Of a stretch of DNA of 64,000 bases, positions 10,568 through 56,716 are shown one piece after another. The notes beneath the pieces were generated by a model. That model ran no database searches. It had not been told where the DNA came from and saw only the letters and a list, made by a program, of their open reading frames with translations. Every line of letters begins with the position of its first letter. The stretch's first letter is position 1. Location: assembly GCF_025999095.1 (NCBI RefSeq), contig NZ_AP024678.1:496001-560000 (forward strand), in the 5' to 3' direction. The translations under genes were made by a program, and so were the position numbers. The DNA is from Thermosynechococcus sp. (lineage in GTDB: Bacteria > Cyanobacteriota > Cyanobacteriia > Thermosynechococcales > Thermosynechococcaceae).

Positions 10568-10828
10568 CTATTGCGAAGAGGATACATTCCCAGACTGGGG
10601 CGACGGCCCTTTGGGTTCGCAAAACCCGTAGATCACCTTACTGCCATGAATAACAACATAGAGCGTCACGCCACTGAGGATAACAGGCATGAGCTGCTCC
10701 AGCCAAGGCAGGTGGCAACCGAGGCGAGTGAGCACAACGGCAAGGGCATCGTCCAAGAGGCTAATCAGCAAAGGTAACAACCGCTGCAGCAGAGCAAGAA
10801 TCTCTGATAAATAGCCATCACTATCCAT
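10568..10828 (-). CDS. Small hypothetical membrane protein
   Basis: 86 residues from an ATG with a GAGAAG ribosome-binding-like sequence about 8 nt upstream. Two hydrophobic segments (about 8-35 and 46-66) flank a short polar bend, followed by HGSKVIYGFCEPKGPSPQ and a Ser-rich tail. This IYG..PKG pattern echoes the relic just downstream (NLIYGSQGP), so the two may be diverged paralogues. It is divergent from the TPR-CHAT gene, about 520 bp away. No function can be assigned and it could be a decaying gene itself. Confidence 0.5.
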   Translation of the reverse strand: MDSDGYLSEILALLQRLLPLLISLLDDALAVVLTRLGCHLPWLEQLMPVILSGVTLYVVIHGSKVIYGFCEPKGPSPQSGNVSSSQ

Positions 10829-10916
10829 AAATGTCTTCTCAGATAATTTGACGCAGAGAATAATTTTAAGTACAGCTTAAGTAGAAGCTGCTTTGCAGGT
10901 ATGGAAAATACTTAAA

Positions 10917-10936
10917 TTGAGTCATTTTGAGTCATT
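10917..10936. repeat. Tandem 10-bp duplication
   Basis: TTGAGTCATT twice in tandem. It may be slippage or a duplicated regulator half-site; the element is TGAGTCA-like but no cyanobacterial factor is proposed. Confidence 0.8.
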
Positions 10937-11023
10937 ACTTACACCCTTTTGCACAAGGGTTGAAACCCGAATCAATACTGTATAAATCAATCATTATCCC
11001 CCCATGAAAGATATATCCTAATG

Positions 11024-11049
11024 TTTAGAAATTTTGTTTAGAAATTTTG
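11024..11049. repeat. Tandem 13-bp duplication
   Basis: TTTAGAAATTTTG repeated head-to-tail, each copy containing the inverted AGAAATTT core. It lies about 300 bp upstream of the TPR-CHAT start. Confidence 0.85.
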
Positions 11050-11349
11050 AAAAATGAGCCGCAGGCTGTGATGGGTTGTGCTACAACAGCACCAAGCTGA
11101 GGGATTTTTGGAAACTTTTAAAAACCATAACACTTCTATTATAAACAACCGCCATGCACGGGGGAAGATAGCCTTTCTCTAAAGTAGAGAGTACATAAAT
11201 AGGCTGTAATCCTGTCATAAAGCGGTTTTGACTTTTCCAAGCAGGATGAATCTTCGCGAACAGAGCTGTAACTGTAATTAATTGTTACATCAACATATAT
11301 TTCAAGGGTCAGTATCTAGGATGGAAGGGGCAACAGCGGCAGGTGACCT

Positions 11350-14040
11350 ATGAAACGGTTGTTGAGCAATCGGTGCTGTTTTACAATTCTGTTGGCGATC
11401 GCCACCGCCACAGGAGTTGGTTTCCCGGGATTTGCGCAAAATGAAACTCAACAGTTGCGCGATATTATGCAGCGGTTGGATGCCCTCCAACAGCGCTATA
11501 GTGCTGCCGTCAGTGAACTAGATGTGATTCGTAAAACCCCCTTTGGCGGCGATACTCATAATGTCATTGCCCTTACAAATCAAATTGAGCAGTTCCAAAA
11601 ACAGGGGAATTATGGCGCAGCGGTGGCACCCTCGCAGGACTTGGTGGCGATCGCCGAGCGGGTTTTAGGGCCTAATCACCCCACCGTTGCCGCCGCCTTG
11701 AATAACCTTGCCGTCACCTATAAAGAACTCGGCAACTTCGGTGAGGCTATTCCCCTTTACCAGCGCAGCTTGGCCGTTCGGGAAAAAGCCCTTGGCCCCA
11801 ATCATCCCGATGTGGCCACCAGCCTCAATAACCTCGCCAATCTCTACACCGATCAGGGTAACTACGGTGAGGCGCTGCCCCTCTACCAGCGTGCCCTTAG
11901 GATCCGTGAGCAAACCCTTGGCAAGAACCACCCCGATGTCGGCTTGAGTCTCCACAACTTGGCAGTGATGTACCATTTGCAGGGCAGCCTAACCACCGCC
12001 TTGCCCCTCTACCAGCGCAGTCTTGGCCTCCTTGAACCCGCCTTAGGGGCAGCACACCCCCTTGTGGCAACGGTGTTGAATAACCTTGCCGAGGCCTATC
12101 GTGCTCAGGGCAGTTATGGGGCAGCGCTTCCCCTCTATCAACGTAGTTTGACGATCCGGGAAAAGGTGCTGGGGACAGATCACCCCGATGTTGCTACGAG
12201 TCTTAACAACTTGGCTGAACTCTACCGGGTACAGGGGAATTCCGGGGCAGCCCTTCCCCTCTATCAGCGCAGCATTGCCCTGCGGCAGCGCACCCTGGGT
12301 GATGAGCATCCCTACTTGGCCCTGAGCCTTGCCAACTTAGCAAAAGCCTACTGGGCGCAGGGGAATAGCAATGAAGCCCTAACGGCTCTCAACCGGGCCC
12401 TTGAGATTGAAGAGGTCAACCTCAGCCGTAACCTAGTGGTTGGTTCCGAGGAATATAAACGCAACTATCTGGCCACATTTCAAGACTCCACCAATACCGC
12501 CATTTCCTTCCATTTGCAGGGGAATCCGCAAAATCCAGCAGTAGCCAACCTGGCGCTGACAACCATTTTGCGCCGTAAAGGTCGGCTGTTGGATGTTTTA
12601 GCGGCAACGATAAGCCGCCTGCGCAATCAACTGGATGCATCGGCTCAGCAGCAACTGGAGGAATTAATTCGTGTGCGCACCCAGATTGCCAGCCTCACCT
12701 TTGGGCGCGATCGCCCCTCCTCCGCCCATCAGATTAGTCAACTGGAACAGCGGGCCAAGGCACTAGAAGCACAACTGGTGAGCCAAAATGCCAACTTCCG
12801 TTTGGAAGTCACCCCCGTAACCCTCAGGGCTGTGCAGCAAGCCATTCCCGCCAATGCCGTGCTGCTGGAGTTTATTGAATATGTGCCCTACAACCCAAAA
12901 ACCAACCGTTGGCAAGCTCCCCGCTATGCCCTCTATGCGCTGAAGAATAGTGGTGCCCCCCAATGGCGAGACTTGGGGACGGTGGCTGATCTGAATACGG
13001 TCATTAAAGCGGCGCGCCAGCGGATGGCGGATCCAAGATTGCCAGCTACGGTAACGAAGCCCTCTTTGCAGGCGGCCTATGAGCGCCTCTTGGCTCCTCT
13101 GGAACCCTTCCTAGCGGGCAGCACCCATCTGCTAGTGGCTCCCGATGGGCAGTTGAACACTCTGTCCTTTGAGGCCTTGGTGGATCGGCAGGATCGCTAT
13201 CTAGTGCAATCCTATACGATCACACTGCTCACCTCAGGCCGCGACTTGCTGCGGCTGCAACAGCAGCGCAAACCCGCAACCCCCCCCTTGGTGGTGGGCA
13301 ATCCCACCTTTAGTCAAGGGAGTGGTCGTGCCCTGGCAGGGACTCAGCGGGGGGTCAACCCGCGATCCCTGGATTTGCGCAGCCTCACATTTACAGAATT
13401 GCCGGGGACGGCCACCGAGGTAAAAATCCTGAGCACCCTGTTGCCCCAAGCTCAAGTGCTCACGGGCAGGGATGCCACCGAAACGGCGATCAAAGAAACC
13501 CGAGGCCCCCGTGTGCTTCACTTGGCCACCCATGGATTTTTCTTGGAAAGGCCGTCCGTGTCTCCCCAAGTCCTGCAAAATAGCCGCGGCCTCAATGGCG
13601 CGGTTCCCTTGGGTGGTGAAAATCCCCTCTTGCGCTCTGGCCTGGCGCTGGCGGGCTTCAATCAACGGCAGAGTGGGGTGGATGATGGGGTGCTAACAGC
13701 TTTTGAGGTCACTGGCCTCAACCTCGATGGCACCGAGCTGGTGGTGATGTCCGCCTGTGATACGGGGCGCGGCGATATTCTCAATGGCGATGGTGTCTAT
13801 GGATTGCGGCGAAGCTTTACCTTGGCGGGGGCGCGCACCCAAGTGAGTTCCCTTTGGAAAGTGGACGACGCCACGACCCAACAACTCATGGTTCTCTTTT
13901 ATCAACAGCTGGCAGCGGGCAAAGGACGCAGTGAAGCTCTCCGCCAAGCTCAGTTGCAGTTAATGACTGACCCCCGTAAGCAAATTCCCTATTTTTGGGC
14001 TGCCTTTGTCAGCAGTGGTGAGTGGCGACCGCTTCCTTAG
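11350..14040 (+). CDS. TPR-CHAT protein (caspase-like peptidase domain)
   Basis: 896 residues. A signal peptide-like N-terminus (1-29, ending GFPGFAQ) is followed by about six to seven 42-residue TPR units of the kinesin-light-chain type (roughly 65-350; repeated NNLA.LY..QGN.G.ALPLYQRSL), a helical linker, and a C-terminal CHAT domain. The predicted catalytic dyad is present: His728 in HLATHGFF and Cys803 in MSACDTG. CHAT proteases are caspase relatives that cleave protein substrates recognised by partner domains. A signal peptide would place it outside the cytoplasm, unlike the CRISPR-linked TPR-CHAT protease. It is convergent with the DUF58 gene, overlapping by 4 bp. The substrate is unknown. 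Confidence 0.92.
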   Translation: MKRLLSNRCCFTILLAIATATGVGFPGFAQNETQQLRDIMQRLDALQQRYSAAVSELDVIRKTPFGGDTHNVIALTNQIEQFQKQGNYGAAVAPSQDLVAIAERVLGPNHPTVAAALNNLAVTYKELGNFGEAIPLYQRSLAVREKALGPNHPDVATSLNNLANLYTDQGNYGEALPLYQRALRIREQTLGKNHPDVGLSLHNLAVMYHLQGSLTTALPLYQRSLGLLEPALGAAHPLVATVLNNLAEAYRAQGSYGAALPLYQRSLTIREKVLGTDHPDVATSLNNLAELYRVQGNSGAALPLYQRSIALRQRTLGDEHPYLALSLANLAKAYWAQGNSNEALTALNRALEIEEVNLSRNLVVGSEEYKRNYLATFQDSTNTAISFHLQGNPQNPAVANLALTTILRRKGRLLDVLAATISRLRNQLDASAQQQLEELIRVRTQIASLTFGRDRPSSAHQISQLEQRAKALEAQLVSQNANFRLEVTPVTLRAVQQAIPANAVLLEFIEYVPYNPKTNRWQAPRYALYALKNSGAPQWRDLGTVADLNTVIKAARQRMADPRLPATVTKPSLQAAYERLLAPLEPFLAGSTHLLVAPDGQLNTLSFEALVDRQDRYLVQSYTITLLTSGRDLLRLQQQRKPATPPLVVGNPTFSQGSGRALAGTQRGVNPRSLDLRSLTFTELPGTATEVKILSTLLPQAQVLTGRDATETAIKETRGPRVLHLATHGFFLERPSVSPQVLQNSRGLNGAVPLGGENPLLRSGLALAGFNQRQSGVDDGVLTAFEVTGLNLDGTELVVMSACDTGRGDILNGDGVYGLRRSFTLAGARTQVSSLWKVDDATTQQLMVLFYQQLAAGKGRSEALRQAQLQLMTDPRKQIPYFWAAFVSSGEWRPLP

Positions 14041-18128: not shown

Positions 18129-18998
18129 CTAGGGCTGAGGCAGGGCAGATTGCTCCAGTTGGCTCATCAGTGCCCGCAGGGGGGGCTTGGCCAATAGGGT
18201 TTGCGTATCCGCCACTAAGCGATCGCCCCAGAGGTTCTCCCGTTGAAACTCCACCGTGCCGTAGCGGCTATCGAGACGCAGCGCTTCCTCTGCCAGTTGG
18301 AGTGCCCTTGCTTCTTGCCCCAGTTGGAGGAGAGCCGTTGCCAAGGCCAGTTTAGGCTCACTGGCCTTGGGGTCAATCTCTGCCGCCCGTTCCCAGTTCT
18401 TTGCCGCCTGCTGAATCCTGCCTTGCTCATAGAGCACCAAACCAATGTTGGTGTAGGCTGGCCAAAACTGACGATCCAAACGCAGGACACGGCGGTATTG
18501 CGCGATCGCCTGCTCCTTTTCTCCCAGTTTGAGATAGGCATTGCCCAGATTAAACCATTCCTCTGTGGCATCAGGTTTGAGAGCCAATCCCTGCGCGATC
18601 GCCCGCGCTGCGGCTCCATAGTGCCCCAGGCGAAAATGAGCAGCGCCTAAGTTGAAATAAGCCCCTGGATTTTTGTCTTTGAGTTTCAAAGACTGCTCTA
18701 GGGCTGGCACCGCGTCCTTGGGTTGATTAACTGTTAGGTAGAGCCCCCCCAGTAAGGCCCAAATTTCGTAGGCTCGGGGTGCCAACTGCACTGCCAGTTT
18801 TGCCCGCACCAACGCATCTTGAAATTGCTGGAACTGGGCCAGTTGCAGGGCTTCTTGTGCCACGATAAAACCATTTTGTTCCATCTCCTTGGCATTGAGT
18901 TCAAGGGTGCGCGGCAGCACCACTTGGGCTGTGGCTACACTGCTACTCAGGAGGGCTAGACTAAGACCAAGGACAAAGCGGGCAGTTGTTTTAAACAC
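18129..18998 (-). CDS. TPR-repeat exported protein
   Basis: 289 residues from a GTG at 18998; starting there gives a clean signal peptide (VFKTTARFVLGLSLALLSSSVATAQ), while the longer open frame from 19118 adds unrelated sequence. The mature part is built of about six 34-residue TPRs (e.g. AYFNLGAAHFRLGHYGAAARAIAQGL, WFNLGNAYLKLGEKEQAIAQYRRVL). Such proteins act as scaffolds in the periplasm or thylakoid lumen; the partner is unknown. It lies immediately upstream of the GNAT gene (1-bp gap). Confidence 0.82.
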   Translation of the reverse strand: MFKTTARFVLGLSLALLSSSVATAQVVLPRTLELNAKEMEQNGFIVAQEALQLAQFQQFQDALVRAKLAVQLAPRAYEIWALLGGLYLTVNQPKDAVPALEQSLKLKDKNPGAYFNLGAAHFRLGHYGAAARAIAQGLALKPDATEEWFNLGNAYLKLGEKEQAIAQYRRVLRLDRQFWPAYTNIGLVLYEQGRIQQAAKNWERAAEIDPKASEPKLALATALLQLGQEARALQLAEEALRLDSRYGTVEFQRENLWGDRLVADTQTLLAKPPLRALMSQLEQSALPQP

Positions 18999-19208
18999 GG
19001 TGGGCGTCTCGGTGTGAACTGAGCAGGGGAGATTCCTCTTTAGTTTGCCACAACCTGTCAGCATTTGGTGTTTGCTGCTGCCACCTTGGCGCCAAGACGC
19101 TTGCTTGCTGAAAAACAATAGATTAGTTTAGACCTTGGCTAGGGTCTCAATTTATATTTTTCTTCACATTTTCTAAACAAAATTAAATGTGTTTTTGAGG
19201 AAACTTAA

Positions 19209-55591: not shown

Positions 55592-56716
55592 TTGAATTGT
55601 TCTACGGTGACTATTCCCCTTCAACCTTCCTCCGACCGTCCATTGACAACGGATTTGGTGCGGCAGTATTTGCAAGAAATTGGCCGTGTACCCTTGCTCA
55701 CCCCTAGCCAAGAACTGCGCCTTGCCCAACAGGTGCAACACTACCAAGCCCTGCTGGCAGTGCGAGATCAGTCCGATGATCCCCAGATCAAACGCTATGT
55801 GGCGGCTATTACGGAGCGCGATCGCGGGCAGCGGCAGTTGGGGCGTCCCCTAAACCGTGCCCAATGGGCTGGGCGACTCAATGTGAGTGAGGCTGAATTG
55901 CAAACCTGGGTGCAGGCGGGGCGTCAGGCTTGGGCAAAGGCAGCGAATATTACCCTAAGTGAACTGCAGCACATTGAGCGTCAAGGACAGCGGGCAAAAA
56001 CCCAACTGCTGCAAGCCAACCTGCGCTTGGTCGTGAATATTGCCAAAAAATATCAACATCGCGGCGTGGAATTTTTAGATTTGATCCAAGAGGGGAGTTT
56101 GGGTCTAGAACGTGCCGTTGAAAAATTTGATCCGACCAAGGGATTTCGCTTTAGCACCTATGCCTATTGGTGGATTCGCCAAAGTATCACCCGTGCTGTT
56201 GCTAGCCAAAGCCGTACAATCCGCCTACCCATTCACATGGTGGAAAAGCTCAATAAAATTAAGCGTGTCCAACGGCGTCTTGCGGCTCAACAGGGAGCGA
56301 TGCCCAGTCTGGCAGACATTGCCCAAGAACTGAATCTTGAGGTGTCGCAGGTGCGGGAGGTGCTGATGGCGGTTCCCAAATCCGTGGCCTTAGAACAGCG
56401 GGTTGGTTCCGACCAAGAAACAGAATTGCAGGAGTTGATTGAATCCCCTGCCCCTACCCCCGATGAGGTGATCCTGCGTGAGTCCCTACGTACGACTTTG
56501 AAGCAACTTTTGCAGGATCTATCCCCCCGTGAGCGCCAAGTGATGGAACTGCACTATGGCCTAGGGGAACAGCCTGCCCTTGAGATGGCGGAAATTGCAG
56601 TACTGCTGGGACTGAGTCGGGAGCGGATTCGCCAAATTGAGCACCGCGCCCTGCAAAAATTGCGGCAATCCCAACGGCGGCGGGAAATTCAAGACTATCT
56701 GGAGGAGTTTGCCTAG
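55592..56716 (+). CDS. Group 2 sigma factor (RpoD-like)
   Basis: 374 residues, apparently from a TTG (start uncertain; a GTG lies at 55607). Contains region 1.2 (TTDLVRQYLQEIGRVPLLTPSQELRLAQQV), region 2 (VEFLDLIQEGSLGLERAVEKFDPTKGFRFSTYAYWWIRQSITRAVASQSRTIRLPIHMVE), region 3 and region 4 (ERQVMELHYGLGEQPALEMAEIAVLLGLSRERIRQIEHRALQKL). It lacks the long N-terminal extension of principal sigma, hence group 2, as for the alternative sigmas of cyanobacteria. It overlaps ispE by 4 bp at its 3' end. Confidence 0.93.
   Translation: MNCSTVTIPLQPSSDRPLTTDLVRQYLQEIGRVPLLTPSQELRLAQQVQHYQALLAVRDQSDDPQIKRYVAAITERDRGQRQLGRPLNRAQWAGRLNVSEAELQTWVQAGRQAWAKAANITLSELQHIERQGQRAKTQLLQANLRLVVNIAKKYQHRGVEFLDLIQEGSLGLERAVEKFDPTKGFRFSTYAYWWIRQSITRAVASQSRTIRLPIHMVEKLNKIKRVQRRLAAQQGAMPSLADIAQELNLEVSQVREVLMAVPKSVALEQRVGSDQETELQELIESPAPTPDEVILRESLRTTLKQLLQDLSPRERQVMELHYGLGEQPALEMAEIAVLLGLSRERIRQIEHRALQKLRQSQRRREIQDYLEEFA

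Follow-up and report, generated by a model that had tools for sequence, protein, structure and literature searches.

A very probably exported TPR-CHAT protein of Thermosynechococcus and the branch of CHAT proteins to which it belongs

Where does a TPR-CHAT protease act, and on what, when its gene seems to encode a signal peptide? The best-known CHAT proteases are those of a CRISPR system and HetF, the CHAT protein from which the name of the domain derives, and the TPR-CHAT protein of that CRISPR system, Craspase, is an RNA-guided enzyme of the cytoplasm. The question was raised by a gene in a 64,000-nucleotide stretch of a Thermosynechococcus sp. genome (NZ_AP024678.1, positions 496,001 to 560,000), hereafter called the window. 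The original prediction read this gene as encoding an exported TPR-CHAT protease, exceptional in being exported, which might act on or with a small membrane protein encoded next to it. Our results suggest that the protease does act outside the cytoplasm, whereas neither the exceptional character of its export nor the partnership with the small protein withstood the comparison with relatives.

The gene is an open reading frame (ORF) of 896 amino acids (aa) at window positions 11350-14040, on the plus strand. The second codon 5' of its ATG is a stop, so that a longer start is impossible. The product has the order signal peptide, TPR and CHAT, and its parts are the following.

11350..11436, plus strand: predicted signal peptide, residues 1-29, cut at GFA↓QNE (rule-based call; a fast-evolving segment ends at residue 29).
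11437..14040, plus strand: predicted mature TPR-CHAT chain plus stop codon (from the ORF reading and substitution rates; its only cysteine is C803).
11551..12432, plus strand: seven 42-residue TPR units, residues 68-361 (Pfam TPR_12 and TPR_10, structural model, kinesin light chain matches).
12433..13059, plus strand: linker before CHAT, residues 362-570 (AlphaFold2 model; aligned with relatives).
13060..14022, plus strand: CHAT domain, residues 571-891 (PF12770; fold resembles those of Craspase TPR-CHAT and separase).
13531..13533, plus strand: codon of the putative catalytic His728.
13756..13758, plus strand: codon of the putative catalytic Cys803.

The Pfam match to CHAT (PF12770) scores 309 bits against a cut-off of 24, and that to TPR_12 scores 354 bits. 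An AlphaFold2 model built on an alignment of 41 sequences (predicted local distance difference test, pLDDT, 85; predicted template-modelling score, pTM, 0.84) has a helix at the N-terminus, then seven helix pairs that bear out the predicted TPR array and resemble kinesin light chain in sequence and in Foldseek matches, a linker made of helices and a small beta part (residues 503-544), and the CHAT part. The predicted model has the caspase/separase-type fold of the CHAT family. The closest solved fold for the whole chain is that of Craspase TPR-CHAT (Z 27.0, root mean square deviation (rmsd) 7.5 over 584 residues), and for the protease part that of separase (Z 25.8, rmsd 3.6, 321 residues). Peptidase_C14 (PF00656) is not among the 18 families that match the protein at E<=0.001, which sets it apart from C14 orthocaspases, and neither is the two-partner secretion (TPS) domain PF05860. 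The TPR, linker and CHAT regions are under purifying selection, with a ratio of nonsynonymous to synonymous substitution rates (dN/dS) of 0.07-0.11, and the orthologues of the seven closest genomes have the same length of 896 aa. We also noticed that the orthologue of genome G009 (L047:7268-9987; G and L numbers are our labels for genomes and loci) consists of two overlapping frames with an internal TAA, which makes it a pseudogene or a sequencing error.

The His728/Cys803 dyad, described as intact in the original prediction, is unchanged across two alignments, one of 27 and one of 41 sequences. It may nevertheless be asked if the protein is a protease at all, since fold similarity shows no function. 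CHAT might serve as a structural element or bind a ligand, and the TPRs might turn the protein into a scaffold in the envelope. The model has low-confidence parts near the dyad, including stretches 738-755 and 805-809, which could be taken in favor of such a scaffold; they would also fit a latent enzyme, without proving one. We consider the scaffold unlikely, because both H728 and C803 are invariant in diverse sequences and because C803 has been retained in a mature chain that has no other cysteine.

Is the protein exported? We called signal peptides with a home-made rule for Sec signal peptides cut by signal peptidase I (Sec/SPI). The N-terminus of the window protein, MKRLLSNR-CCFTILLAIATATGVGFPGFA-QNE, satisfies the rule, as do those of all nine other orthologues in the genus that possess an N-terminus, and that of a paralogue in the same genome. 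Taken alone the rule is modest evidence, because 2 of 31 cytosolic proteins of E. coli pass it at their annotated starts (5 of 31 when the start may lie anywhere in the first 120 residues) and because 9.9% of the shuffled versions of the window N-terminus pass it too. The pattern of conservation adds to this. Mean identity between nine orthologues is 52% over residues 1-29 (minimum 21%) and 91% over residues 30-66, and dN/dS in the seven closest orthologues is 0.47 in the first segment versus 0.10 in the second. The shift sits at [GTV]xA↓QNE (AxG↓QNE in one orthologue), as expected of a cleaved signal peptide. Furthermore, C803 is the sole cysteine past residue 29 in 9/9 orthologues. Depletion of cysteine extends to relatives: in a sample of 12 genomes described below, excluding frames of less than 300 aa, the median cysteine content past residue 60 is 0.25% in the C-terminal CHAT proteins with a signal-peptide call (n=24) versus 0.82% in the N-terminal ones (n=16; Mann-Whitney p 1.3e-4), and the comparison of all 42 C-terminal CHAT proteins with the same 16 also gives p 1.3e-4. 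The anatomy of the signal peptide, the step in conservation, the lone cysteine, and proteins of other bacteria in which an anti-sigma-like domain and CHAT are fused across a membrane helix (see below) lead us to conclude that the window protein is very probably exported from the cytoplasm. None of our tests indicated a cytoplasmic location.

Export might be thought exceptional when the protein is compared with Craspase TPR-CHAT, and this comparison is where the impression came from. It fades among closer relatives. All four CHAT matches of this genome lie in frames that pass the rule at the first ATG: the window protein; its paralogue, with signal peptide, TPR and CHAT and 57% identity over the matched part; a protein of 489 aa with signal peptide and CHAT; and a protein of 1648 aa (L037) with a TPS domain and CHAT. 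Beyond this genome, CHAT is present in 103 of the 116 genomes sampled from the class. From 12 genomes, hand-picked to span families with moderate CHAT counts and not drawn at random, we used 60 of 66 CHAT matches after dropping six short fragments. Signal peptides were called at some start in 24 of the 44 proteins with a C-terminal CHAT (18 at the first ATG) and in one of the 16 with CHAT elsewhere, nearer the N-terminus (Fisher p 8e-4).

A broader set gave a similar result. We collected 80 loci from named genomes by similarity to the CHAT part and counted 67 of them, having dropped eight at contig ends and five of less than 600 aa; the rule is passed by 54/67. These include 22/28 in cyanobacteria, 10/14 in Acidobacteriota, 10/11 in myxobacteria, 4/4 in gammaproteobacteria, 3/4 in 'deltaproteobacteria', 2/2 in Planctomycetota, 1/1 in each of three other groups, and 0/1 in Nitrospira. 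One further sample, of 72 frames, was taken from among the strongest CHAT matches. A quick tree of 144 CHAT domains separates the 16 N-terminal CHATs as one side of a branch with support 99, although the tree tool flags long branches on that side. The window protein and its paralogue fall inside a clade of 72 (support 100) that consists mostly of proteins with signal peptide, TPR and CHAT and includes four sigma-linked proteins of Acidobacteriota. The TPS-CHAT sister pairs with the TPR-less protein (support 86), apart from the window protein. Judging from these signal-peptide calls, export is common in this branch of CHAT proteins, and the view of the window copy as an exception has to be given up. 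Many, and probably most, cyanobacterial C-terminal CHAT proteins would then act outside the cytoplasm, as would many in other phyla, and their substrates should therefore be sought in the envelope.

Which envelope proteins could be cut? A lead comes from Acidobacteriota. Among the neighbors of the 80 named relatives, of which 14 acidobacterial loci are complete, we found four acidobacterial loci (L199, L201, L207, L216) in which a gene for signal peptide, TPR and CHAT is immediately preceded by a sigma factor gene and an unannotated gene, all on the same strand. The sigma factor resembles those of the extracytoplasmic function (ECF) type: the three proteins tested give matches to TIGR02989 at E 3.8e-10 to 1.6e-11, all of them below the cut-off of the model. 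In the product of the unannotated gene a membrane helix begins near residue 116-142 and is followed by some 180-210 residues, and Pfam gives nothing above cut-off for this protein; from its position and anatomy we infer that it is a membrane anti-sigma factor. A search with one such protein found homologues in 40 of 98 genomes of the class. In six of these genomes, hand-picked (two through their CHAT loci, the others for having the strongest or several anti-sigma matches, a choice that leans to strong matches), a CHAT lies on the same strand within 4 kb of 20/20 anti-sigma-like genes, against 0.25 expected by chance; the 20 places are matches at E<=1e-10, with two adjacent rows merged. They account for 20 of the 79 CHAT matches of the six genomes, and a sigma gene is also present in 16/16 of the linked places whose surroundings were fetched. 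We also analysed 31 longer stretches around anti-sigma homologues, several of which were chosen because a short flank had shown no CHAT, and found a CHAT frame in 20 and a sigma frame in 24. Where the anti-sigma matches of a genome are weaker, many of these genes lack such a CHAT neighbor. The link between the putative anti-sigma factors and CHAT thus appears strong, and far from universal.

Five acidobacterial frames of 1159-1212 aa go one step further and carry, fused in a single protein, an anti-sigma-like domain, one membrane helix that starts at residue 103-137, TPR and a C-terminal CHAT. They are the following.

L306:836-4426, fusion protein beside a sigma frame (dyad positions H1049 and C1102).
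L312:3025-6573, fusion protein beside a sigma frame.
L313:1590-5192, fusion protein beside a sigma frame.
L314:3268-6744, fusion protein beside a sigma frame (runs to the contig end).
L315:1323-4958, fusion protein beside a sigma frame.

His and Cys stand at the dyad positions in 5/5 of them. Provided that their N-terminal domain binds a sigma factor in the cytoplasm, the CHAT part must lie on the other side of the membrane. We considered a specific tie of the acidobacterial sigma factors to type III-E CRISPR systems and rejected it. Matches to NF041236 were obtained for three of them at E 3.6e-5 to 1.5e-3 and fall well short of the cut-off; this is a general similarity among ECF factors, because the model also gives sub-cut-off matches in 7 of 14 control genomes.

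These results can be assembled into a proposed mechanism. Signal peptidase I would remove the N-terminus, most likely residues 1-29, and the mature protein would sit in the periplasm or in the thylakoid lumen. There, the seven-TPR solenoid may bind an envelope ligand or partner and relay the binding to CHAT, as in Craspase. CHAT would stay latent until the loops of its active site become ordered, after which H728 and C803 would cleave a single envelope protein or a small number of them at specific sites. A membrane anti-sigma factor is the likely substrate in some relatives, and a proteolytic switch driven by an extracytoplasmic signal is therefore a plausible job of the lineage. An economical model, by analogy, would have exported TPR-CHATs respond to a signal in the envelope by cutting a regulator there, which would be a membrane anti-sigma factor where the two are linked. 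We find it probable, though well short of established, that the window protein is such a Sec-exported, caspase-like, TPR-gated and latent peptidase of envelope proteins, with a plausible part in switching of this kind.

Several observations weigh against this reading. On the side of export, the top-scoring cut of the rule is after residue 20; the preferred cut after residue 29 was picked from the alignment of orthologues. The orthologue of the next genus (G012) does not pass the rule from its first ATG and does so only from a later TTG. In the sample of 12 genomes 20/44 C-terminal CHAT frames fail the rule; by eye, some of them look like signal peptides, others (L152, L153, L155) do not. A term search found CHAT unmentioned in the main text of cyanobacterial proteome papers. 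The closest characterised enzyme, Craspase TPR-CHAT, works in the cytoplasm, and it is only a distant relative, with profile E 0.007-0.013 and a best matching stretch of about 70 residues. On the side of the regulatory circuit, 11 of the 31 longer stretches have no CHAT frame (L316, L317, L318, L319, L321, L322, L323, L324, L327, L329, L331), which means that anti-sigma-like genes occur without CHAT; of these, L316 runs into the end of its contig, the contigs of L319 and L323 are short, and in L329 the end of the stretch truncates a TPR frame that has a signal-like start. The sigma link was seen in Acidobacteriota (with DdvA, discussed below, as a further case by name) and not in cyanobacteria. 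Seven matches to sigma-70 region 2 occur in the Thermosynechococcus genome, none of them within 40 kb of a CHAT gene, and a search of this genome at E<=1, run without a positive control, found no homologue of the putative acidobacterial anti-sigma factor. In all, no sigma or anti-sigma module was found linked to the window gene.

Could the protein be cytoplasmic like Craspase TPR-CHAT, its N-terminus being an uncleaved anchor or a hydrophobic start that arose by chance? The passing shuffles and the home-made nature of the rule can be cited for it. The switch in conservation at residue 30, the cysteine depletion of the mature chain, the anti-sigma fusions, which would put CHAT across the membrane, and the TPS-bearing sister in the same genome all speak against it, and we judge a cytoplasmic location very improbable.

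An exported CHAT protein could instead be a conflict or cell-death effector that acts on other cells, on periplasmic phage components, or on the damaged envelope of its own cell. CHAT and caspase domains are effectors of proposed conflict systems according to two studies (PMC10907252, PMC7159879). C14 caspase genes with exported-looking starts adjoin exported CHAT genes in three loci, and in L066 an exported CHAT gene precedes a partial frame that is caspase-like. In the Thermosynechococcus genome, one sister CHAT has a TPS domain and another weakly matches the PADLOC model BovA (E 6.4e-6). Yet PADLOC gives the window protein a generic TPR match only, on which ground its membership of a catalogued defence system was rejected, and there are no CRISPR-like direct repeats in window positions 4000-25000. 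Purifying selection and the constant length of the orthologues are also unlike what is expected of a gene engaged in an arms race. An effector is quite unlikely on this balance, and we retain the latent envelope peptidase as the better reading. The C14 caspase genes are worth recording in their own right: they lie at L182:7697-9970, L186:1585-3849 and L222:7159-8532, and by eye two of their starts are Tat-like (RRHFLQ) and one is Sec-like, while the partial frame of L066 starts from 5512.

Could the substrate be encoded next door? The original prediction pointed to a small divergent membrane ORF and to an unstructured region of 521 bp that separates it from the TPR-CHAT gene.

10568..10828, minus strand: gene of a small divergent membrane protein (dN/dS 0.147; a neighbor judged to lie outside the system).
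10829..11349, no strand: divergent spacer of 521 bp, a promoter region by position only (no RNA structure, no Rfam match, conserved blocks).

The small ORF is real, since a dN/dS of 0.147 over eight sequences indicates a protein gene, and hydrophobic stretches read by eye suggest its membrane nature. Eight genomes of the genus, this one and seven others, have it next to the TPR-CHAT gene, and this is the observation that would favor a protein on which, or with which, the protease acts. However, it was not found in G003, G010 and G012 despite the presence of a TPR-CHAT orthologue in each (nor in the incomplete genome G006, where no more than a piece of the TPR-CHAT gene was matched). Its homologues occur in 25 of the 194 genomes of the class, and no TPR-CHAT was present in the flanks, of up to 1.5 kb, of the 13 fetched from outside the genus. 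Absence of the small ORF near homologues had been set beforehand as grounds for dropping the partnership, and such absence is what we observed. We therefore rejected the small protein as target or partner, a role that we now regard as extremely improbable; it seems to represent a separate family of small cyanobacterial proteins and to be a chance neighbor. The spacer was described correctly as unstructured: its predicted RNA structure is not beyond chance (z -0.22), it matches no Rfam family, and an RNA element was rejected on these grounds. A promoter scan of the spacer gave nothing above chance. Two blocks in it, at 11130-11149 and 11270-11289, are well conserved in seven genomes.

Other neighbors were compared by clustering 871 frames from 97 loci. 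In cyanobacteria outside the genus this gave only small groups, such as an exported-looking TPR protein in four loci of Moorena, Okeania and Crocosphaera, and the idea of a universal recurrent partner in cyanobacteria was rejected. The window itself encodes a second TPR protein that looks exported by eye (...SLALLSSSVATAQVVLP...), without CHAT, at 18129-19118 on the minus strand, whose cluster spans 11 loci. It also holds a sigma-70 region 2 match at 56006-56218 on the plus strand (genome 552006-552218), in a frame of 380 aa about 42 kb from the CHAT gene. Elsewhere, five strong CHAT matches lie on one strand within about 31 kb at G043:C1:1390078-1421392, an apparent local expansion. In three gammaproteobacterial loci (L239, L246, L249) the exported CHAT gene is followed by a gene of one cluster, and in L239 and L246 the gene after CHAT looks by eye like that of a TolC-type outer membrane protein.

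How does the window protein compare with known systems? The CHAT family is known, whereas the searchable literature seems to say little about its exported TPR-CHAT lineage or about the sigma/anti-sigma modules of that lineage. No titles on exported CHAT proteins were found, although most subscription papers lay outside the search, so that this is no proof of novelty; the terms 'CHAT domain', 'sigma factor' and 'anti-sigma' occur together only in the Craspase paper among the searchable literature. HetF shares with the window protein its cyanobacterial origin and the combination of CHAT with TPR. According to a study in Anabaena (PMC8406250), its conserved active site is required for function. 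HetF differs in having an N-terminal CHAT (aa 1-555), one membrane segment and TPR. The tree, built without HetF itself, places the N-terminal CHATs on their separate, long-branched side. Separase is the closest solved match to the protease part, with 17% identity when aligned; it is eukaryotic and not exported. The TPS-CHAT sister L037 has in common with the window protein the signal peptide and the C-terminal CHAT, and differs in that a TPS domain replaces the TPRs.

The names of two PDB entries (8rot, 8rw5) describe DdvA, on which a 2015 paper on CarD (PMC4374960) was also consulted, as a transmembrane anti-sigma factor and as a CHAT domain-containing protein. Its Foldseek match to the window model has E 1.2e-11, with TM 0.21 and rmsd 27.6, which amounts to no rigid superposition; it was not among the 50 listed matches of the fold search, which does not argue for a different fold. 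The acidobacterial fusions, used as profiles, match DdvA at E 8.8e-10 over the whole protein, mainly through TPR, and at E 0.0034 with CHAT alone. Unlike DdvA, the window protein has a signal peptide of about 29 residues and a short helix before TPR, without an anti-sigma domain, and its gene is not adjacent to a sigma gene.

Craspase offers a further comparison. Its TPR-CHAT protein (Csx29) shares with the window protein the order TPR then CHAT, a separase-like fold and the His-Cys dyad. The two differ in that the window protein is very probably exported, and structural alignments give 11-15% identity. As regards a type III-E locus, there are no CRISPR-like repeats in the 21 kb noted above and the III-E sigma model stays below its cut-off in the genome, the gRAMP effector not having been searched. 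In the Craspase circuit, as described for it (PMC10028731), the protease is switched on through its TPR part, the inhibitor Csx30 is cut and the ECF-like factor CASP-sigma is released. Protease, inhibitor and sigma factor are mirrored in the acidobacterial relatives of the window protein, whose operons appear to combine these three functions, the protease being placed outside the cytoplasm. Exported TPR-CHATs might then form a large and old class of envelope site-1 proteases that would read an extracytoplasmic signal with their TPR solenoid and cut membrane anti-sigma factors or, in cases such as the window protein in which none is linked, some other regulator of the envelope, and Craspase might be a cytoplasmic, RNA-guided rewiring of the sigma/anti-sigma/TPR-CHAT module. 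This broader idea is tentative and rather doubtful, and we lowered our estimate of it slightly because of the recounted stretches without CHAT. If it were true, the module would not have been invented by CRISPR systems. The acidobacterial operons and fusions offer a testable circuit, and a possible origin of the signalling arm of Craspase.

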